Positions 975 to 26,662 of a stretch of DNA of 37,995 bases are shown piece by piece. Within the stretch, counting starts at the first letter, position 1; every line of letters starts with the position of its first letter. The DNA comes from a virus. The stretch lies in the IMG/VR virus record IMGVR_UViG_3300047380_000297, positions 1 through 37,995 of that record; one strand, given 5' to 3'. A program made the position numbers and the translations under genes. Under the pieces are notes generated by a model. The model had not been told where the DNA came from and did no database searches. It saw nothing but the letters and a program-made list of their open reading frames with translations.

Positions 975-1063
975 AATGTGTACAAAGAGAAGAGCTCAAT
1001 GTACATGATGTGTCCAAAAGGAACATCGTAATATAAATCTTGCTTATTATAAGGAGAAACAAA

Positions 1064-1522
1064 ATGACAAGACAAAGACTAACAACTCTAGACCTACCAC
1101 ACTTCCACAGAGCAACAATTGGCTTCGACCAAATGTTTACCGAACTTGAAAGACAGTTTGCTAATAGCCCTAACGGAAATGGTTATCCCCCATACAACAT
1201 TGCACAAATCAACGAAGATGAGTATATGATCTCATTAGCAGTTGCAGGATTTGGCATGGACAACTTAGAAATCGAAAAAGATGGAAAGATGTTACGTATT
1301 GAAGGGACTGCTCCTAAAGTAGATGACGAAGTTAATTACCTACACAAGGGTATTGGCGGACGCAACTTCCGTAGAGAGTTCACACTTGCTGACCACGTTG
1401 AAGTAGAAAGTGCAGGCCTTGAACTAGGTATGCTTAATGTACACTTAAAACGTAATGTACCAGAAGAACTACAACCAAAGAAGATTAAGATTGTAGATAA
1501 TTCAGTTATCGACAGTAAGTAA
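1064..1522 (+). CDS. hsp20: Small heat shock protein, Hsp20/IbpA type
   Basis: This 152-residue protein is an alpha-crystallin-domain chaperone. After an N-terminal stretch it shows PPYNI and the DEYMISLAVAGF strand, then LRIEG, the GIGGRNFRREFTLADHVEV segment and a LELGMLNVHLKRNVPEELQPKKI ending (read as overlapping parts), as in IbpA-like phage Hsp20s. The ATG at 1064 is chosen because AAGGAG stands just upstream; an in-frame codon at 1040 lacks such a site. Hsp20 genes are common in T4-like cyanophages and pelagiphages, where they are thought to help fold or assemble virion proteins. Here it heads a late operon with clpS. Confidence 0.93.
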   Translation: MTRQRLTTLDLPHFHRATIGFDQMFTELERQFANSPNGNGYPPYNIAQINEDEYMISLAVAGFGMDNLEIEKDGKMLRIEGTAPKVDDEVNYLHKGIGGRNFRREFTLADHVEVESAGLELGMLNVHLKRNVPEELQPKKIKIVDNSVIDSK

Positions 1523-1574: not shown

Positions 1575-1886
1575 ATGATGATAAGTAATAGTATGGACGT
1601 AGAAATAGACGAAAAGATCAAGATTAAGGTTACTGAACCAAATATGTATAAAGTAATCTTCCTCAATGATAACGCAACCCCAATGGATTTCGTGATTGAG
1701 ATACTTACTGGAATTTTTAGGCATTCGCCAGATACTGCTAGAGATATAACTATGGAGATACACGAGCAAGGCTCGTCTGTAGTTGGTATTTACAACTTTG
1801 AAATAGCAGAACAGAAAGCCGTAGAAGCAACCACTTTGAGTAGAAGTCATGGATTTCCATTACAAATCAAAGTGGAGCAAGAATGA
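1575..1886 (+). CDS. clpS: ClpS-like adaptor of the Clp protease
   Basis: The 103-residue product matches ClpS, the adaptor that delivers N-degron substrates to ClpA. Residues 24-44 (MYKVIFLNDN followed by ATPMDFVIEIL) are the ClpS core; Asn31, Asp32, Met37 and His63 (EIHEQG) line up with the N-degron pocket. The third pocket acidic residue of E. coli ClpS (NDD) is Asn33 here. GGAG precedes the ATG. The stop overlaps the heme oxygenase ATG. A phage ClpS could redirect host ClpAP, and a ClpP homologue is encoded at 7391-7954. Confidence 0.88.
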   Translation: MMISNSMDVEIDEKIKIKVTEPNMYKVIFLNDNATPMDFVIEILTGIFRHSPDTARDITMEIHEQGSSVVGIYNFEIAEQKAVEATTLSRSHGFPLQIKVEQE

Positions 1887-2431
1887 GCTTAAAAGACCTT
1901 ACTTGGGAACATCATAAGAACGCAGAAAGACAAGAATTTGTAAAAGTCTTAATGGGCGGAGACATTAGCCCTGAGACTTATGCTACATTTTTATTCAATC
2001 AACACCCGTGTTATAACCTATTAGAAGTAATTGCTATGACACATGGATTGTTCGACGACATTCCTGAAGTGCGTAGAGCACCTCGTATCTTTGCAGACTA
2101 TGAAGAACTATGGGAAGATAAAGATAATACGCCAACGTTATTAAACGTAACAAAAGAATACACCGATCACATTATGTCTATTAAAGACGATAAAGAAAAA
2201 ATTATGGCTCACTTGTATGTTAGGCATATGGGCGACCTAAGTGGTGGTCAAATGATTAAGAAGAAAGTTCCTGGCAAAGGAACTATGTACGAGTTCGATG
2301 GAGAAGTCAACGACCTTAAAACAAAGATTAGAGCAAAGATACACGACGATTTGGCTGACGAAGCTAAAATATGTTTTGACTTTGCAACTAAGGCATTTAA
2401 GGAAATGATGGAACACGAACGCAATGACTAA
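1883..2431 (+). CDS. ho1: Heme oxygenase (biliverdin-producing)
   Basis: This 182-residue protein is a soluble heme oxygenase that opens heme to biliverdin, CO and iron. The proximal heme ligand is His11 in the HxxAE motif (HKNAE), and the distal-helix signature GDLSGGQ is at residues 117-123. There is no membrane tail, as in bacterial and cyanophage HO. ATGA overlap with clpS and an 8-base overlap with the halogenase gene suggest one transcript. Because a bilin reductase follows two genes later, the likely role is to supply biliverdin for bilin synthesis rather than to release iron, though both are possible. Confidence 0.93.
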   Translation: MSLKDLTWEHHKNAERQEFVKVLMGGDISPETYATFLFNQHPCYNLLEVIAMTHGLFDDIPEVRRAPRIFADYEELWEDKDNTPTLLNVTKEYTDHIMSIKDDKEKIMAHLYVRHMGDLSGGQMIKKKVPGKGTMYEFDGEVNDLKTKIRAKIHDDLADEAKICFDFATKAFKEMMEHERND

Positions 2432-3917
2432 CGTATCAAGTATTTGTATTGTTGGAGGTGGCACAGCAGGTTGGATGACAGCCGCTTATGCTTTATATAA
2501 CTTACCCAACGTAAACGTTACCCTTGTAGAAAGTCCTAACATTCCAACAGTAGGAGTAGGTGAAGCAACTATACTAGGCTTTGACCATTACTTAAAAGAC
2601 TGTGGCATTCCAATAGAGTTATGGACCAAGGCATCAGACGCAACTATTAAATGCGGAACATACTTTCCTAATTGGAAAGGCGACAATACAAATATTTGGC
2701 AACCGTTTTATTTTCCAGTAGGTACTAGTGACGAAGGACACATGGGCGACATTGTAAACTTAGCTCTTGATGCTGGTGCTACACAAACTGATATGGAAAC
2801 GTACATGTCATGGTACAACACTTGTATTACAAACAACGTTGTTCCAGAGAACACAAGTGTTAAAGGCGGCAACGCTCATGTAGGATATCATTTAGATGCT
2901 ATCAAACTTGCAAACTTCTTATCAGAATATCTAAACAAAAAGTATACTAAACTAACACACATTAAAAAACATATTAGTAAGCCTGTAATTAATAAATGTC
3001 AAGTTGAAAAAGTTATATTAGAAGATGGACAAGAACTTGTTGCTGACTTCTTTGTTGACTGTACAGGATTTAAGAAACTATTATCAAACGCAATACCAGG
3101 TGCAGACTGGGTTGACAGAAGTCATATGCTGTTTACTAATGCCGCGGTTGCAAGTCAAATTGATTACGAAACAGATGACGAACCACAAGTACCTTATGTT
3201 ACTGCACAAGCAACTGACCTAGGTTGGATATGGAAAACTCCTGTTAGAGATAGAATAGGTAGTGGGCTATGTTACAACAGTGACCTAACAACTAAACAAG
3301 AAGCAGAAGATCACTTTGTACAACATTGGGGAGAACATAGACTACGTACAGGTAAGTTTAACCACATACCGTTTGAGCCTAAGTATAATAGAAAGAATTG
3401 GAGAGGTAATTGTTTTAGTGTAGGACTTGCTAGTGGATTTATTGAGCCATTAGAAAGTACAGGACTTGCATTACTAATCATTGGTGCTACTGGACTTAGA
3501 TGTTTACAAAAAGGACATTTTACACAAGAAGATGTAGATGGTTATAATAACGACATTGAAACAGTATACGAAGATAGCATGAACTTTGTAGCATTGCACT
3601 ACTTTAATAATCCAAGACAAGGTAAGTTTTGGAAACACGTTTACGAAAACTTTAAAGAAACACCTAAGCTAGAAGAATTGGCAACAGGGTATGCAAGAAC
3701 GTATACCCCAACACTAGACGAATCGCAGTTCTTTCCACGTAACACGGAAATATTTGCAGAAACTAACTGGAAGTTATGGCTACATGCTACAGGCATTAAT
3801 CCAGCAACACCAAAAATTAAAAAACAAAACGCAATTGACATAATTAAAAGTATGCACGAAGTTGAATTAAGGGAATCAATGCCAGGTATATCTAACAGAG
3901 AGTGGAGTAATAGATGA
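2424..3917 (+). CDS. prnA: Flavin-dependent halogenase, tryptophan-halogenase family
   Basis: The 497-residue protein is a full-length FAD-dependent halogenase. GGGTAGWMTA at 11-20 is the FAD-binding loop. Lys76 aligns with the catalytic Lys79 of PrnA, with the same spacing between flanking Trp residues. GWIWKTP at 267-273 is the W-x-W-x-x-P motif, and FIEPLESTG near 339-347 carries the catalytic Glu. The substrate is unknown: phage homologues exist in marine T4-like phages (VirX1 of cyanophage Syn10) and need not act on tryptophan. It overlaps genes on both sides and lies between heme oxygenase and bilin reductase. The symbol denotes the family, not PrnA activity. Confidence 0.9.
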   Translation: MTNVSSICIVGGGTAGWMTAAYALYNLPNVNVTLVESPNIPTVGVGEATILGFDHYLKDCGIPIELWTKASDATIKCGTYFPNWKGDNTNIWQPFYFPVGTSDEGHMGDIVNLALDAGATQTDMETYMSWYNTCITNNVVPENTSVKGGNAHVGYHLDAIKLANFLSEYLNKKYTKLTHIKKHISKPVINKCQVEKVILEDGQELVADFFVDCTGFKKLLSNAIPGADWVDRSHMLFTNAAVASQIDYETDDEPQVPYVTAQATDLGWIWKTPVRDRIGSGLCYNSDLTTKQEAEDHFVQHWGEHRLRTGKFNHIPFEPKYNRKNWRGNCFSVGLASGFIEPLESTGLALLIIGATGLRCLQKGHFTQEDVDGYNNDIETVYEDSMNFVALHYFNNPRQGKFWKHVYENFKETPKLEELATGYARTYTPTLDESQFFPRNTEIFAETNWKLWLHATGINPATPKIKKQNAIDIIKSMHEVELRESMPGISNREWSNR

Positions 3918-4609
3918 GCGTAATATGGAATAAACTAATTGAAACACAGGATCGTATACTTGGTATTTTTGATGAGTTTGCAGTTGAGAAAGAAGAAAAA
4001 ACACTAAACAAATTTCACCAACCAGAGAATGGATGGCTTAATAAAGTATGGGCTAATCCGCATGTACGCAGAGCTCACATTGATGTAGTTGATGTACGTG
4101 ATAGCAAAGGCTTATGGATGATGCATGTATGTTGTTTTCCTACACTAACTAACGATGCTCCTATATACGGCTTTGATGTTATTGCAGGTAAGAACAAGAT
4201 GACAGGTGCTTTCCATGACTTTAGTGCAAGTAGTGGTGGAGAAGACCATCCGTTAGTTGATTGGTATCAAGATGCAGTTGCAGACTTTATTCCAAGTAAG
4301 AAACGTGAACTACCTGAATGGGCTCGTAATATTTTTAGTCCAAGTATGATTGCCGCTGGTAATGTAAACACAGTAGAAGAAGCTACTGCAATATGCGACC
4401 TAGCAGTAGATAACTTAAGAACATGGTTTGAAAGTGTTCCTCAGTATACAGGCAATGCTAATATTGAACTTACCGCTGGAGCACAGAACTATTACTGTCA
4501 TAACCAGCAACAAAACCCACATACGCCACGTACAATGAAGTCTTTAGGATTACCTGAAGCTGATGTTGATGAGTTTTGTGCAGATGCTCTGTTTCCTAAA
4601 ATAGTATAA
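3914..4609 (+). CDS. pcyX: Ferredoxin-dependent bilin reductase, PcyX/PcyA-like
   Basis: The 231-residue protein carries the ferredoxin-dependent bilin reductase core: MMHVCCFPT with His71 (equivalent of PcyA His88) and IYGFDVIAG with Asp88 (equivalent of PcyA Asp105), then the F-H-D-F-S segment. The C-terminal YYCHNQQQNPHTPRTM stretch matches the FDBR YCxQQxxNxxTRR helix. The PcyA Glu76 position is not clearly conserved. The family reduces biliverdin to phycobilins with ferredoxin electrons. Phage members include PebS (cyanophage) and PcyX (uncultured marine phages, presumed alphaproteobacterial hosts), both forming phycoerythrobilin. ATGA overlap with the halogenase and the nearby heme oxygenase support the call; the subtype needs a phylogeny. 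Confidence 0.85.
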   Translation: MSVIWNKLIETQDRILGIFDEFAVEKEEKTLNKFHQPENGWLNKVWANPHVRRAHIDVVDVRDSKGLWMMHVCCFPTLTNDAPIYGFDVIAGKNKMTGAFHDFSASSGGEDHPLVDWYQDAVADFIPSKKRELPEWARNIFSPSMIAAGNVNTVEEATAICDLAVDNLRTWFESVPQYTGNANIELTAGAQNYYCHNQQQNPHTPRTMKSLGLPEADVDEFCADALFPKIV

Positions 4610-7390: not shown

Positions 7391-7954
7391 ATGCCTAAAT
7401 ACGATAATTGGAATAGCTCAGATGCAGTAGAACGATCGTTATTAGATAACGACATACACTATCTGAATGGAGAACTTACAGGTGAAAATGTAGGTGAAAC
7501 AATTAAATGGATCCTTAGTGCTAACCTAACAAAAAAGCCCAAAAGAACACTTGAACTTTATATTAACACTACAGGCGGAGATCTCTATGAGATGTTTGCT
7601 CTTATTGACGTAATGAAGAATAGCTATCACAACATAAGCACAGTAGGCGTAGGTGCTATTATGAGTGCAGGATTTATGCTATTTGCAAGTGGTACAAAAG
7701 GATATCGTTGGATTGGTAAGAACACAGGTATAATGAATCATCAACACAGCGACAACATGGATGCCAAAATGCATGATATGAAAGCACAGATGAAAGAGAA
7801 TAAAAACTGTGAAATGAGATGTATGCAAATACTACGTGAAGCAACGGGTATGACTATCCAAGAAGTAAACACCAAATTCATCAAAAATCCAAGTGATCAA
7901 TACTACACAGCCAAACAATTGGTTGATCTTGGTATAGCCGACGAAATATTATAG
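7391..7954 (+). CDS. clpP: ClpP-like serine protease
   Basis: The 187-residue product belongs to the ClpP/crotonase-fold peptidases. The catalytic triad is complete: Ser92 in AIMSAGFML, His117 in MNHQHSD and Asp169 in SDQYYTAKQ, followed by the usual G-I-A-D-E ending. NTTGGDLYEMFAL matches the substrate-binding NSPGG region in altered form. The nucleophile context is MSAG rather than the usual ASMG. It could form its own tetradecamer or mix with host ClpP; with the phage ClpS at 1575-1886 this suggests control of host proteolysis. It is less likely a prohead protease, since no head genes are near. Confidence 0.87.
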   Translation: MPKYDNWNSSDAVERSLLDNDIHYLNGELTGENVGETIKWILSANLTKKPKRTLELYINTTGGDLYEMFALIDVMKNSYHNISTVGVGAIMSAGFMLFASGTKGYRWIGKNTGIMNHQHSDNMDAKMHDMKAQMKENKNCEMRCMQILREATGMTIQEVNTKFIKNPSDQYYTAKQLVDLGIADEIL

Positions 7955-11987: not shown

Positions 11988-12159
11988 AGAATACAAGTAC
12001 GAAGACCTATTTCACGTTGAAACCAAAGGACCACGTGCAGGTGAAACTATTTTAACTCTTCCTCCAGAGCTTCTTAAAGAAAAAGGATGGGACGAAGGAA
12101 CTAAACTTAAAATTGAAGTAGGTGATATGGGTACTCTAATATTAACGGAGATAACATGA
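11974..12159 (+). CDS. AbrB/MazE-like small protein
   Basis: The 61-residue protein ends in a swapped-hairpin-like pattern: ILTLPPELLKEKGWDEGTKLKI followed (after a short turn) by GTLILTEI. This is the shape of AbrB/SpoVT/MazE DNA-binding domains. The partner toxin expected for an antitoxin is absent, so a small regulator is more likely. It overlaps its neighbours by 14 and 4 bases. Confidence 0.65.
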   Translation: MTISKEYKYEDLFHVETKGPRAGETILTLPPELLKEKGWDEGTKLKIEVGDMGTLILTEIT

Positions 12160-12935
12160 GAATTATTGCAGGGCCTTGCCAACACGAATCATACGAACAC
12201 AGTTTAATGATTGCCAAACATTGCAAAGCAATTTGTGATAAGTTAGGTATTGACTATTACTTCAAAGCAAGTTTTGACAAAGCAAATAGAAGTAGTATGC
12301 AAGGTAAACGTGGTGTTGGACTTATTAATACACTAAACGACTTTAGAAGATTAAAAGATGCAATACCAAATCTTAAAATTCTTACAGATGTACATGATGT
12401 AGACCAAATTGAAAAGTTAGAGATGGATGAATTCTGTGACTTAGTAGACGTATTACAAATACCCGCATTCCTTTGTAGGCAAACTGACTTGGTACAAGCG
12501 GCATGCGAAACAGGCAAAATTGTTAACATCAAAAAAGGACAGTTCTTAGCACCTTGGGACATGAAAGGTATTCTAAGCAAGTGTACTGATGCTAAACAAG
12601 TTTGGATAACCGAAAGGGGAACAAGTTTTGGATATAATACTTTGGTGGTTGATTTCACCGGCCTTAATTATATGCTTGATAATTTTAGCAATCCTATTAT
12701 ATTGGATGCCACACACTCAGTACAGAAGCCAGGCGGTAATGGAAGTAGTAGTGGCGGTAATCGCGATTATGTGCCTGGCTTATGTAGGGCAGGTAGTGCT
12801 TTGGGTATTACAGACTTCTTCTTAGAAGTACATGATGACCCTGATAATGCCCCAAGTGATGGTCCTAACATGCTACACTTAGATAATTTTGAAAGGGTTA
12901 TAAATGACATCGTCAGCTATTCTTATTCCGGCTAG
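12156..12935 (+). CDS. kdsA: KDO-8-phosphate synthase (KdsA)
   Basis: The 259-residue protein is a full-length 3-deoxy-D-manno-octulosonate-8-phosphate synthase, joining PEP and arabinose-5-phosphate in KDO (LPS core) synthesis. KASFDKANRSS at 37-47, LTDVHD near 76-81, IPAFLCRQTDL at 102-112 and FGYNTLVVD near 158-166 are signatures. Cys8 (AGPC), His187, Glu224 and Asp235 match in identity and spacing the metal ligands of the metal-dependent class (as in Aquifex), unlike E. coli KdsA, which has Asn at the Cys position. kdsB follows with overlap, so the phage could make CMP-KDO. Confidence 0.93.
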   Translation: MRIIAGPCQHESYEHSLMIAKHCKAICDKLGIDYYFKASFDKANRSSMQGKRGVGLINTLNDFRRLKDAIPNLKILTDVHDVDQIEKLEMDEFCDLVDVLQIPAFLCRQTDLVQAACETGKIVNIKKGQFLAPWDMKGILSKCTDAKQVWITERGTSFGYNTLVVDFTGLNYMLDNFSNPIILDATHSVQKPGGNGSSSGGNRDYVPGLCRAGSALGITDFFLEVHDDPDNAPSDGPNMLHLDNFERVINDIVSYSYSG

Positions 12936-13599
12936 ATTTGCTAGTACACGTTTTCCTGGCAAGCCATTAGCTATGTTGGGCAAAAAGACTATGATCAGAC
13001 GTGTGTATGACGCTTGTATTGCGTCTAAGATACCAACATATGTAGTAACTGACAGTATGCAGATATACAACCAGTTCAATGCAGACACTTGTTTTATTGA
13101 AGAAACGGAGTATGAAAACGGAACTGCAAGATGTGCAGGTGCAATTAAGCACGAGTTTTTTAGCAAGTACGATACATTTATTAACGTACAAGGTGACATG
13201 CCAGATGTTACACTAGACATGATTGAAGGAACATTAAGCAACTTAAAAGACTATGATGTGTCCACAATGTGTGCAATGATGCCAGAAGAAAAACAGAACG
13301 ACCCTCACACAGTTAAACTAGTTAGAGGTGCAGGTAAGTGTTTATGGTTTGGTAGAGGCATGACCGGCTACGGTGATTGGCATTTAGGTATTTACGGTTA
13401 CAAACGTAAAGCATTAGAACAATACGATAACTTAATTGTTACAAAAGAAGAACGCCACGAAAGTTTAGAACAGCTTCGTTGGTTAAAGAACGGATGGAAT
13501 ATTGGTGTACTTCCTTGTGAGTTTAGCGGAATGGAAATTAATACACCAGAAGAATTAGAACAATGGAACGAACTGAATGGCAATAATAGTAAAAGATAA
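12904..13599 (+). CDS. kdsB: CMP-KDO synthetase (KdsB)
   Basis: The 231-residue product is a nucleotidyltransferase that activates KDO as CMP-KDO. The N-terminal IPARFASTRFPGKPL loop at 8-22 binds CTP; ENGTARCA at 71-78 and INVQGDMP at 93-100 correspond to the E. coli HRSGTERL and VNVQGDEP motifs, with Met for Glu in the latter. ESLEQLRWL and MEINTPEELE near the end are typical. It is slightly shorter than bacterial KdsB (about 250). It overlaps kdsA by 32 bases and the next oxygenase gene by 23. No KDO transferase is seen in the window. Confidence 0.9.
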   Translation: MTSSAILIPARFASTRFPGKPLAMLGKKTMIRRVYDACIASKIPTYVVTDSMQIYNQFNADTCFIEETEYENGTARCAGAIKHEFFSKYDTFINVQGDMPDVTLDMIEGTLSNLKDYDVSTMCAMMPEEKQNDPHTVKLVRGAGKCLWFGRGMTGYGDWHLGIYGYKRKALEQYDNLIVTKEERHESLEQLRWLKNGWNIGVLPCEFSGMEINTPEELEQWNELNGNNSKR

Positions 13600-14089
13600 C
13601 TTCTTAGATCAAAAACTAATTGATACTATTGCAACTGAGATCAAAACAAAGATCCAGTCGTCAGAAGCTGTCTGGGCTACTAGTCATAGTTGGGAAGGTA
13701 TAGTTGTTGAAGGATCTAATAGTGCTAACATGAGTCCTTTGAAAAACGGTATACATGAACTACGTCAAAAGTTTGTAAACTTAAATCCGTTTTATAGTGG
13801 GTTACAGTTTGAAGCATTTATATACTTATGGAATAGAAACAGTATGCTAGACTGGCATGATGATTCAGGATATGTAGCAAGTGGTACAATTTATCTTAAT
13901 CAACATTGGGATTCAGCAGACGGTGGGTTATTCTTATACAAAGAAGATGAACAAATTCTAGCACAAGAACCAAAGTTTAATAGATTGATACTAAACGACA
14001 ATAGAAAAAATTCAACAATGCATAGTGTAAGTGCTATTACTCCTTGGGCTAAACAAACAAGAGTAACTGTACAAGCGAGGTTTAAATAA
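13577..14089 (+). CDS. 2OG-Fe(II) oxygenase family protein
   Basis: The 170-residue protein has the iron-binding HxD as His94-Asp-Asp96 (LDWHDDSG), a distal His149 (MHSVSAI) and the 2OG-binding Arg162 (QTRVTVQARF). DGGLFLY is the usual GG strand before the distal His. Its position directly after kdsB, with overlap, raises the possibility of a sugar or lipid-A related substrate, but that is only context. Confidence 0.82.
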   Translation: MAIIVKDNFLDQKLIDTIATEIKTKIQSSEAVWATSHSWEGIVVEGSNSANMSPLKNGIHELRQKFVNLNPFYSGLQFEAFIYLWNRNSMLDWHDDSGYVASGTIYLNQHWDSADGGLFLYKEDEQILAQEPKFNRLILNDNRKNSTMHSVSAITPWAKQTRVTVQARFK

Positions 14090-14676
14090 TGTATCAACTA
14101 ACTCCGCCTAACATACGTAATAACCCAATGCCGTACTTTAAGTTACAGGAATGGGGTCTTGAACAATCAATGATTGATGCTATTGAAGACCAAATTAATG
14201 TTCAACCTGCAAAGTATATTACTGATAATGGTAAAGATGATGACACATCAATACGTAGTACAGACATTGATTGGATTGATACTCGTATGCAACCAGACTT
14301 TTATGCACTACTAGGTAATGTTGTCCATTATGCAAACAACACATTATTCAAATATGCAATTACAGATTTAGAACCTTGCCAGTACGGAGTATATGACGCT
14401 GACAAGAAAGGACACTACGACACTCATTCGGACGGGGCCTTTAAAGGACAACACGGCCAGGTTCGGAAGATATCTTTTAGTATTCTTCTTAGTGATCCAA
14501 AAGATTTTGAAGGCGGCGAGTTATTACTAATGCCAGACTTTCAAGGTATTAAGACAGATTTACAAAAGCATGAGATCTGTTTCTTCCCAAGTTGGTTACC
14601 TCACAAAGTAACTCCTGTTACTAAAGGCATTCGCAAAAGTATTGTTGGGTGGGTACATGGACCCGATTTTGTGTAA
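14089..14676 (+). CDS. 2OG-Fe(II) oxygenase (PKHD-like)
   Basis: The 195-residue protein resembles the PKHD-type hydroxylases found in many marine phages. The iron ligands are His113 and Asp115 (THSDG) and His172 (LPHKVTPV), with Arg182 (IRKSIVGW) for 2OG. EGGELLLM is the conserved strand between. A TAATG overlap couples it to the preceding oxygenase gene. The substrate is unknown. Confidence 0.85.
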   Translation: MYQLTPPNIRNNPMPYFKLQEWGLEQSMIDAIEDQINVQPAKYITDNGKDDDTSIRSTDIDWIDTRMQPDFYALLGNVVHYANNTLFKYAITDLEPCQYGVYDADKKGHYDTHSDGAFKGQHGQVRKISFSILLSDPKDFEGGELLLMPDFQGIKTDLQKHEICFFPSWLPHKVTPVTKGIRKSIVGWVHGPDFV

Positions 14677-15098: not shown

Positions 15099-15175
15099 GC
15101 ACCCGTAGCTCAGCTGGATAGAGCACAACTTTGCGGAAGTTGGGGTCAGAGGTTCGAATCCTTTCGGGTGCGCCA
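15099..15175 (+). tRNA. tRNA-Arg, anticodon GCG
   Basis: A complete 77-base tRNA with encoded CCA. The acceptor stem pairs GCACCCG with CGGGTGC. The anticodon stem is CAACT/AGTTG with loop TTGCGGA, so the anticodon is GCG (15133-15135), reading CGC and CGU arginine codons. The T-arm has loop TTCGAAT, and its stem contains one G-T pair. Bacteria normally read these codons with an ACG (inosine) tRNA, so GCG is uncommon. It lies between a terminator and the ligase promoter with no obvious promoter of its own. Confidence 0.93.
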
Positions 15176-23777: not shown

Positions 23778-24332
23778 ATGCTTGTAATTGGCAACGGTGA
23801 AACTAGATATAACATTGATTTAGGTCTGTTTAGAGATACTAAAGTAGGATGTAATGCCCTGTATAGAGATTATACAGTAGATCATTTAGTCTGTTGCGAC
23901 AAGCGAATGGTTAAAGAAGTACTAGAAGCAAACACATTTAAGGGTACTTTATATACCCGTAAAGACTGGTTTGAAGATTTCAAAGGAGTTGAGTGTTTAC
24001 CCGACTTACCTTACAAAGGTACAGCAAGACCAGATGATCCTTGGCATTGGGGCAGTGGTCCTTTTGCTGTACTAATTGGAGCAAGATTAGCATATGAATG
24101 GAAAGAACCTGTTAACCTAGTAGGGTTTGATTTGTACAATGGAAATATTTACAAGGATACTAAAAACTACGCCAAATCAGATGCAAGACCAGTAGATCCT
24201 AGTTATTGGATACACCAAATGAACAAAGTATTTGAACACTTTCCTAGTGTTACGTTCAATTATTATTCTACAAAAAAATGGCCAGATAAGTATAGTAACA
24301 TAAAGAATTTTAATTTAGAGGAACTTAAATGA
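23778..24332 (+). CDS. Phage protein, Rossmann-like (184 aa)
   Basis: The N-terminus LVIGNGETRYNIDL and the GCNALYRDY and DHLVCCDKRMVKEVL segments fit a Rossmann-like domain seen in uncharacterised phage proteins; the WHWGSGPFAVLIGA and NLVGFDLY segments look like a second conserved core, recalling DUF115/MptE-like or sialyltransferase-like enzymes. This is a fold-level guess only. The ATG at 23778 is preceded closely by a TTAAATA late-like box and has no ribosome-binding site. It overlaps the next oxygenase gene by 4 bases. Confidence 0.6.
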   Translation: MLVIGNGETRYNIDLGLFRDTKVGCNALYRDYTVDHLVCCDKRMVKEVLEANTFKGTLYTRKDWFEDFKGVECLPDLPYKGTARPDDPWHWGSGPFAVLIGARLAYEWKEPVNLVGFDLYNGNIYKDTKNYAKSDARPVDPSYWIHQMNKVFEHFPSVTFNYYSTKKWPDKYSNIKNFNLEELK

Positions 24333-24979
24333 ACTACGAACCAAAACATCATAATGCGTTCCCTTCACTGATCACTAGTTTTGATATTGAAGGACACGAA
24401 AGTGAGCAGACTTGTGTAGACATGATTGATGCGTTTAATGAGTATGGTCCCGACCATCCGTTAGTTGCAAAAGGAAAAAGTAGTTATCAAAAAGGAGACG
24501 AACAGTTTTTAAACGATCACAAACTTGTTCCTCTTTGGAAAACTGTACAAGAATGTATTGACGTATACACACAGCATCTTGGTGTTGATTATACTCTATT
24601 GTCAACTAGCTGGTTTAATTCTTTATTCGAAGGTGGTGCAGTCGACGCCCACAGACATGAACGCAGTATTATTAGTGGCGCATACTATCCGTATGTAGAC
24701 AAAGGTAGTTCGCCTATTGTATTTAGAAATCCTAACCAAGTAAACTTTATGAACTATTCACCAATGGGGTTAACAGACTACAATAGATATGAATTAGAAT
24801 GTTTTCCTAAAACAGGATTATTAGTTTTGTTTCCAAGTTGGATGGAACATCGTGTTATTCCAAACCAAACAGAAAAAAGATACACAGTTAGTTTTAACAC
24901 AATTAGACATAGTGACAGAGCCGCATTTATGAACATAAGAGATTATAGGATTGACCCGCATGAAAGCACAGATAGTTGA
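24329..24979 (+). CDS. 2OG-Fe(II) oxygenase-like protein, copy A
   Basis: The 216-residue protein belongs to a 2OG-Fe(II) oxygenase group (Oxy_5-like) in which the usual HxD is HxH: His108-Arg-His110 in DAHRHERSIISGAYYPYV. The distal His174 (WMEHRVIP) and Arg184 (EKRYTVSFN) are in place. SSPIVFRNP follows as in the family. It is a paralogue of the next gene, with the same motifs. The substrate is unknown. Confidence 0.75.
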   Translation: MNYEPKHHNAFPSLITSFDIEGHESEQTCVDMIDAFNEYGPDHPLVAKGKSSYQKGDEQFLNDHKLVPLWKTVQECIDVYTQHLGVDYTLLSTSWFNSLFEGGAVDAHRHERSIISGAYYPYVDKGSSPIVFRNPNQVNFMNYSPMGLTDYNRYELECFPKTGLLVLFPSWMEHRVIPNQTEKRYTVSFNTIRHSDRAAFMNIRDYRIDPHESTDS

Positions 24980-26110: not shown

Positions 26111-26662
26111 ATGATTTGGGAACAAGTAAACGAGGATCGTAAAAAACTTAAGGTAGCACATTATAAAAATGCGTTTCCAGAAGCAGTAAATGATATTAAC
26201 TTTACAACACTAGTAGAAGTAAATCAATATAAGTCTACAGTTACAAACGTAGATGAATTTGTAAAAGGAAGTACACATATTTCTGACATCGGGTCAGACA
26301 AGCGTATACAAAAATATTTGTTAGAGTTTCAAAAGAACTATGACAGACATGAAACTGAAGCTCACTTCAATGCTAGTTTGTTCTTTTCATTAAGTGACGG
26401 ACATAATAGCTTGTTCCTACATAATGATTACGAAACTGTTTTGCTTATACAAGGATACGGTGAAACTGCATATCTTGTAACAGATGGAGATACAATGAAC
26501 AAACAAATTTATCATTGTAAAACAGGAGATGCTTTACTGTTACCAAGACTTACAAATCATAAACCTTTAATCTTAGGTCCAAGAGTTACATTAAGTTTGG
26601 GTGCTAATCCTTTAAAAGCAATGACCAGTAAAAACTATGGTCCAGTTAATTCATCAATGTAG
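26111..26662 (+). CDS. Cupin/2OG-Fe(II) oxygenase-like protein
   Basis: The 183-residue product has a C-terminal beta-helix with candidate iron ligands His104-Asn-Asp106 (FLHNDYE) and His150 (TNHKPL), and Arg158 (GPRVTLSLG) for 2OG. KTGDALLLPRLTNH matches the GD...P...H strand of JmjC/cupin-like hydroxylases. The first ~90 residues are unrecognised. It follows queD by nine bases. The substrate is unknown. Confidence 0.65.
   Translation: MIWEQVNEDRKKLKVAHYKNAFPEAVNDINFTTLVEVNQYKSTVTNVDEFVKGSTHISDIGSDKRIQKYLLEFQKNYDRHETEAHFNASLFFSLSDGHNSLFLHNDYETVLLIQGYGETAYLVTDGDTMNKQIYHCKTGDALLLPRLTNHKPLILGPRVTLSLGANPLKAMTSKNYGPVNSSM

Follow-up and report, generated by a model that had tools for sequence, protein, structure and literature searches.

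A viral DNA sequence of 37,995 nt from IMG/VR (record IMGVR_UViG_3300047380_000297, positions 1 to 37,995; "the window" denotes this whole stretch) carries a gene for a flavin-dependent halogenase embedded between the genes for a heme oxygenase (HO) and a PcyX-type ferredoxin-dependent bilin reductase (FDBR). The explanation that we consider probable is that HO and the PcyX-type enzyme together would produce phycoerythrobilin, and that the halogenase is an active accessory enzyme housed in a slot between them. Since ClpS also overlaps HO, the coupled unit comprises four genes, ClpS-HO-halogenase-FDBR, at 1575-4609. These four are listed here with an upstream and a downstream neighbour:

1040..1522, + strand: Hsp20-family small heat-shock protein, the usual neighbour upstream of the cassette (PF00011, 1.5e-14)
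1575..1886, + strand: ClpS, Clp protease adaptor (PF02617, 6.5e-28)
1883..2431, + strand: HO, 182 aa (PF01126 Heme_oxygenase, 2.9e-19)
2424..3917, + strand: flavin-dependent halogenase of a cassette-specific subfamily, 497 aa (PF04820 Trp_halogenase, 6e-93)
3914..4609, + strand: PcyX-type FDBR, 231 aa, predicted phycoerythrobilin synthase (PF05996 Fe_bilin_red, 2e-15)
7391..7954, + strand: ClpP-like protease, which we infer to be a possible partner of ClpS (PF00574, 1.9e-26)

HO, halogenase and FDBR are complete open reading frames (ORFs), and their Pfam scores all exceed the curated cut-offs. The overlaps measure 4 nt for ClpS/HO, 8 nt for HO/halogenase and 4 nt for halogenase/FDBR, and a preliminary description of this DNA, which had reported three full-length, overlapping genes in the order HO-halogenase-FDBR, was borne out at these coordinates; the overlap of ClpS with HO had no place in that description. 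All three genes are under purifying selection, with dN/dS values of 0.02-0.19 (seven pairs per gene; rough, as several dS exceed 1). Given these values and the recurrence of the gene order, a chance arrangement of reading frames is ruled out. A promoter scan of the window was uninformative (16 found against 18.8 expected), and a single weak terminator-like site on the + strand lies within the halogenase gene.

The best solved match of the FDBR is PcyX_EBK42635 (5owg; E 5e-79), with 52% identity over 226 aa; identity to three phage PcyA proteins and P-SSM2 PebS is 19-24%. Among 56 distinct sequences out of 83, those of the window and of pelagimyophage Mosig EXVC030M included, residues H55, D57, H71, D88 and D102 are invariant. 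D57 aligns with PcyX Asp55 of 5owg and is Asp in 56 of 56, while the three PcyA proteins have Glu; Asp55 is named as the PcyX-specific catalytic residue in a section of PMC11480375. A quick tree, which took in no bacterial or plant FDBR and has very long outgroup branches, separates 57 PcyX-type rows from PcyA and PebS, with Mosig and 5owg forming one branch; it groups the window enzyme with PcyX (5owg, Mosig). The preliminary description had proposed HO together with a PcyX-like FDBR, and this pairing held up (Pfam; 52% to 5owg). The FDBR is accordingly classed by its sequence as PcyX-type, and its product is most likely phycoerythrobilin, formed by four-electron reduction of biliverdin. The structures solved for relatives of the window HO are those of heme oxygenases, whose conserved His (e.g. 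in 5kzl) lines up with H11; GDLSGGQ is present as well, and we take the two to be the proximal His and the distal helix, respectively. A reading of this protein as an HO-like diiron nitrile synthase (AetD) was dropped because the aligned His and GDLSGGQ are retained.

The cassette recurs widely. In the best 80 of 224 FDBR relatives in IMG/VR, HO was found at 79 loci, ClpS at 79 and the upstream Hsp20 at 74, and a halogenase lies between HO and FDBR at 22. A second FDBR scan (best 80 of 207) returned 53 contigs already known and 27 new ones, none of the 27 with a halogenase between HO and FDBR, giving 22 of 107 contigs overall; L091, from the halogenase scan described below, adds one carrier, for a total of 23 contigs plus the window, with 14 distinct FDBR proteins among those compared. 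The preliminary description had named absence of the halogenase from this position in all related phages as part of what would count against it; this does not occur, the gene order being present at 22 of 80 related loci and in L091. At all 22 loci HO overlaps the halogenase by 8-20 nt (predicted starts), and there is a 4-nt overlap between ClpS and HO. Between halogenase and FDBR, 10 loci have a 4-nt overlap and 4 a spacing of 116-895 nt, with 8 unresolved. Across the 79 loci, ClpS and HO overlap in 45, are separated by 0-60 nt in 24 and by more than 60 nt in 6, and are unresolved in 4. In this lineage ClpS accompanies HO as constantly as FDBR does, and it does so in phages that lack the halogenase too. 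A ClpP 64-100% identical to that of the window is encoded downstream at 21 of the 22 halogenase-containing loci, the 22nd being incomplete.

The HO-FDBR gap is a variable cargo slot. HO and PcyX occur with no halogenase between them at 57 of the 79 loci with HO in view, so the two enzymes do not need it, and the FDBR core residues inspected are identical with and without it. In three contigs a CN-hydrolase (PF00795) lies between halogenase and FDBR (L028, 3989-4756; L029, 7102-7887; L032, 3990-4763). The halogenase-free slot of L027 holds a CN-hydrolase (1707-2618), a second HO-like protein and a 2-oxoglutarate (2OG) oxygenase; other halogenase-free slots contain a tblastn CN-hydrolase match alone (L408, L409, L417), a 2OG oxygenase (L030), small ORFs or two 305-aa ORFs (L062), or are near-empty. 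The second HO-like protein of L027 (2629-3255, PF01126) by eye seems to lack the conserved His and GDLSGGQ, and may be degenerate or repurposed.

A halogenase profile scan, read over the best 80 of 584 relatives, replaced a single-sequence scan of viral_contigs that had given six matching stretches. The 17 of these 80 halogenases that are at least 50% identical to that of the window, together with L085 from the single-sequence scan, are flanked by HO and FDBR (18 of 18 loci). The other 63 loci, all at 38% identity or less, have no HO, FDBR or ClpS in the DNA compared, which spans at least 9 kb at 37 of them and less than 9 kb at 26. Among 50 whole records chosen from the 80, PF04820 scored over its cut-off in 14 (with one more match below cut-off), namely 13 cassette carriers with a single copy and L020 with three copies elsewhere. 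In a quick tree the cassette halogenases, diverged from one another to 50-55% identity, form one clade with support of 100 beside other viral halogenases. A single clade of halogenase carriers was nevertheless rejected by approximately unbiased (AU) tests on quick trees of FDBR (p 0.0013) and HO (p 0.014). That the halogenases form one clade and their carriers do not in the FDBR and HO trees implies either ancestral presence with losses, or transfer; the halogenase was thus kept, or moved along with the slot, which favours a functional or expression link to HO.

In a stricter form of our explanation, the gap would be no more than a tolerant insertion site, and the halogenase would serve a task unrelated to tetrapyrroles, acting for instance on tryptophan, indole or a host signal. 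The range of other genes found in the slot, listed above, is consistent with this, as is the abundance of halogenases elsewhere in marine phages, in 70 phage records and at least 584 IMG/VR stretches, and the window enzyme scores best against the tryptophan 6-halogenase Thal (4.1e-61). However, a free gene would be expected at other loci too, and this subfamily was not seen elsewhere despite its divergence, while its overlap with HO is retained in 22 of 22. Such pure cargo is possible, though we lean towards a gene with some tie to HO. Three or four halogenase-like tblastn matches fall within 13 kb in the marine contigs L102, L104, L107, L114 and L115, and likewise in L120, L131, L133, L134 and L151.

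The structure model of the halogenase, built from 76 sequences, has a confidence (pLDDT) of 92.5; an earlier model from 13 sequences (pLDDT 59) was set aside. Against the 48 tryptophan-halogenase-type entries listed, the model scores Z 35.7-41.1 (VIA-align), with Xcc4156 at 41.1, PrnA, Thal and PyrH at 39-40, BrvH at 38.8 and VirX1 at 35.7, values that are mostly tied. Thal is the nearest solved enzyme by sequence and also stands first in the Foldseek list; the sequence scores of VirX1, BrvH and Xcc4156 are 7.4e-55, 8.3e-49 and 2.8e-46. The FAD-binding glycine motif GGGTAGW is present. K76 and E344, invariant in the 76 sequences, align with RebH K79 and E357, which are described as important for catalysis in part of PMC5945002. 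From these residues and the model, the protein is most likely an active enzyme that depends on FADH2, O2 and halide and relies on a host flavin reductase.

For the substrate the signs are mixed. Passages of PMC5945002 describe how cover-loop residues of tryptophan halogenases bind Trp at its amino and carboxyl groups, and how BrvH, with a short open loop, does not halogenate tryptophan and may accommodate larger substrates in its open site. All 13 cassette halogenases carry a cover-loop insert with P438-R439, where 37-39 of 40 viral relatives and all 23 bacterial ones show a gap; the 13 also share Thr at residue 272, a position taken by Ile in 34 of the 40 viral relatives and in all 23 bacterial ones. 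Loop residues 431-440 are poorly modelled (mean pLDDT 56). By hand count the loop is intermediate in length, with I443-F444 more BrvH-like and N448 more RebH-like (pLDDT about 56), and R439 falls opposite RebH E461 only by an ungapped hand count, no more than a hint. In a profile alignment that leans towards bacterial enzymes, 23 of its sequences being bacterial, the C-terminal EIFAETNW fits a motif found in BrvH, Xcc4156 and the L11 enzyme; the best bacterial relatives among the matches listed are 35-36% identical. A BrvH-like rather than Trp-halogenase-like reading was withdrawn, as sequence scores favour Thal and structural Z values are tied, and with it went the view that the substrate is probably not free tryptophan.

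The halogenase might instead act on biliverdin, phycoerythrobilin or another tetrapyrrole of the route, changing its colour, stability or toxicity. That the subfamily was seen only in the cassette (18 of 18 loci), and that it overlaps HO in 22 of 22, would suit such a role; the Pro438-Arg439 insert could fit an acidic substrate, and an open site admitting larger substrates has been suggested for the related BrvH (in part of PMC5945002). However, HO and PcyX do without the halogenase at 57 of 79 loci, the FDBR core inspected is the same either way, and a CN-hydrolase separates halogenase from FDBR in L028, L029 and L032. The cover loop is also poorly modelled, the nearest solved enzyme by sequence is a tryptophan 6-halogenase, and halogenated bilins made by a flavin halogenase were not found in the literature, among the matches listed. 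We regard bilin halogenation as possible but unlikely. The preliminary description had taken translational coupling to suggest a common process, such as the halogenation of a tetrapyrrole. The first half of that argument gains from the 18 of 18 loci and the 22 of 22 overlaps; the second is weakened by the halogenase-free loci, the other slot genes and the unchanged FDBR core.

Judging from its relatives, the phage itself, a marine one not yet cultured, most likely belongs to a lineage related to jumbo phages. Contig G001, of the window's own species, has 13,126 bases in common with the window at 99.94% and extends about 60 kb beyond it; it encodes 5-aminolevulinate synthase (ALAS) about 43 kb upstream of HO, and ALAS was found in 7 of 31 related records. 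The 117.5-kb contig G052, which carries the halogenase, has counterparts of 38 of the 41 window ORFs, in largely the same order. Its DNA polymerase is 51% identical to that of Sinorhizobium phage Phosso (469 kb), 47% to that of Atu_ph07 (490 kb) and 31% to that of the T4-like pelagiphage Mosig. It is 78-80% identical to that of 3 of 31 other IMG/VR contigs, and these three lack the halogenase. The G052 clamp loader is 56% identical to that of the PA5oct group (287 kb), to which another G052 protein is 36% identical, and one window protein is nearest PA5oct (31% identity over 62%). Portal_T4, present in Mosig, was found in none of 30 IMG/VR contigs (fragments, some near-duplicates). A psbA-type match was found in none of the 31 related records, mostly fragments, in agreement with the preliminary description, which had noted no photosystem gene. 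The psbA and Fer2 ferredoxin searches gave no clue to the host.

A mechanism can be proposed on this basis. HO would open heme, taken from the host or newly made, to biliverdin, CO and Fe(II), and the PcyX-type FDBR, with electrons from host ferredoxin, would reduce biliverdin by four electrons to phycoerythrobilin; the phage ALAS could feed the route in this species. The halogenase would be an accessory gene placed between HO and FDBR, retained and translationally coupled to HO, its product working with FADH2, O2 and halide and dependent on the host for flavin reduction. The purpose of HO and PcyX might otherwise be iron supply, with heme iron freed for phage iron enzymes and the bilin a waste product whose formation relieves product inhibition of HO. 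This idea is discussed in part of PMC11480375; the window's Fe-S biosynthesis protein and its four 2OG-Fe(II) oxygenases, and NrdB-like and Rieske-type proteins in related contigs, are consistent with it. However, ALAS is encoded in 7 of 31 related records, among them the contig G001 of the same species as the window. Making heme anew would use up as much iron as HO sets free, which argues against simple iron salvage and would favour the bilin or CO as the product. We think iron supply unlikely. It does not exclude the other readings; none of them is mutually exclusive, and the likelihoods that we attach to them need not sum to one.

A role for ClpS could also be imagined. Glutamyl-tRNA reductase of Arabidopsis is degraded under the control of heme, a process that involves ClpS (in part of PMC6597238), which makes the coupling of ClpS to HO intriguing; that the phage protein acts on tetrapyrrole enzymes is speculation by analogy. 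The fullest version of these ideas is a jumbo-phage pathway in which ALAS channels carbon into heme, HO and PcyX follow, and the dedicated halogenase acts on the bilin or on an intermediate to give a halogenated linear tetrapyrrole, co-translated ClpS tuning the turnover of tetrapyrrole enzymes. We consider it a long shot, and a halogenated linear tetrapyrrole as a product class was not met in the literature searched.

Several observations weigh against the account of bilin synthesis plus accessory halogenase in a jumbo-related phage. The exclusive link between halogenase and cassette could mean a dedicated tetrapyrrole substrate, and the outgroup branches that set the FDBR apart from PcyA and PebS are very long. 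The lineage is mosaic: the jumbo-type polymerase is found in G052 and in no other halogenase-carrying contig (fragments), NrdB is nearest Mosig and cyanophages (64%, among the matches listed) and the window DNA ligase is nearest phages of Bacillus-type hosts (32-36%). A Fer2 ferredoxin was found in none of 30 IMG/VR contigs, so a host electron donor is assumed. More generally, the activities of all three proteins, their products, the electron donors and the host are read from sequence.

Other genes of these phages may be mentioned briefly. The window encodes four 2OG-Fe(II) oxygenases by Pfam among the ORFs scanned (regions 403-960, 13577-14676 and 24329-24979), a JmjC match below cut-off (26111-26662), UvdE, PTPS and the Fe-S biosynthesis protein, as well as a lone tRNA-Arg (15099-15175) with anticodon gcg, uncommon in bacteria. 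Overlapping genes of the DAHP-synthase and cytidylyltransferase families at 12156-13599, presumably a KdsA/KdsB-like pair for Kdo, are unmatched in the syntenic G052. G052 (L256-L261) encodes Hsp70 and, by eye, DnaJ-like and ClpB-like ORFs, which with ClpS, ClpP and Hsp20 make up a repertoire for protein quality control that is rich by phage standards. In the cultured Mosig EXVC030M, a putative ferrochelatase (L082, 4357-5127) lies a few genes before HO, and a Fer2 ferredoxin is encoded at 2758-3000 of the record; both are possibly tied to the bilin route.

Part of this picture has been published. HO-PcyX in phages of non-cyanobacteria, sometimes with ALAS, was reported in sections of Wegner 2024 (PMC11480375), citing Ledermann 2016, so that half of the preliminary description is not a discovery. 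The same paper, in part, calls the co-occurrence enigmatic and clusters its contigs with pelagimyophages by gp13; a jumbo lineage was not met in the sections consulted, and the word halogenase does not occur in its main text. Phage halogenases are likewise on record, in 20 of 153 cyanophage genomes (part of PMC10452541), where halogenase and bilin-type genes are covered as separate cyanophage genes. A halogenase beside HO or PcyX was found in no published case among the matches listed, in a search outside which subscription papers and supplements lay. What look new, therefore, are the halogenase embedded between HO and FDBR and the type of phage that carries the cassette. There is no consensus on what bilin cassettes do for phages of heterotrophs. 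Concrete partners now come from phages that differ from Mosig and hold a second lineage of PcyX, coupled to ClpS and next to a swappable slot, one occupant of which is a dedicated halogenase. Should the halogenase act on bilins, this would be tetrapyrrole chemistry of a new kind; otherwise the enzymes still form a distinct subfamily, which has a substrate-loop insert of its own and has so far been met only next to heme oxygenase (best 80 of the 584 in the scan).

Among known enzymes, VirX1 (6qgm) likewise has a phage-encoded flavin-dependent halogenase fold (Z 35.7). VirX1 is reportedly the viral halogenase of Gkotsi in 2019, and we take it to originate from cyanophage Syn10. The Syn10 halogenase gene is 29.6% identical to the window enzyme, all 12 of its listed neighbours are hypothetical proteins, and its product groups with L157, outside the cassette halogenase clade (quick tree, no bootstrap). 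Thal, PrnA, RebH and PyrH share the catalytic Lys and Glu, and N448 of the window enzyme is at the position of RebH N470; however, tryptophan halogenases are 26-27% identical to the window enzyme, and the substrate-site loop of RebH is longer (hand count). BrvH and Xcc4156 (6frl, 6y1w) share the ExFxxx(S/N)W C-terminal motif, but at 26% identity and with sequence scores below that of Thal, and none of the 23 aligned bacterial relatives shows the Pro-Arg loop insert. As for the phages, the records that matched HO or FDBR do not include Phosso, Atu_ph07 or PA5oct. The closest known arrangement is the hemO-pcyX pair of pelagimyophages (Mosig EXVC030M), in which HO directly precedes and overlaps a PcyX-type FDBR, with ALAS in some genomes; the window and Mosig FDBRs are 52% identical. 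In a scan with the Mosig FDBR (best 80 of 194 loci, with flanks of up to 4 and 8 kb), a neck gene was nearby at 73 of 80 loci, ClpS at 0 of 80 and a halogenase in between at 0 of 80, whereas window-type loci have ClpS at 79 of 80, the Mosig-type neck gene at 0 of 80 and the halogenase at 22 of 80. With neighbours that differ in this way, PcyX has two phage settings.

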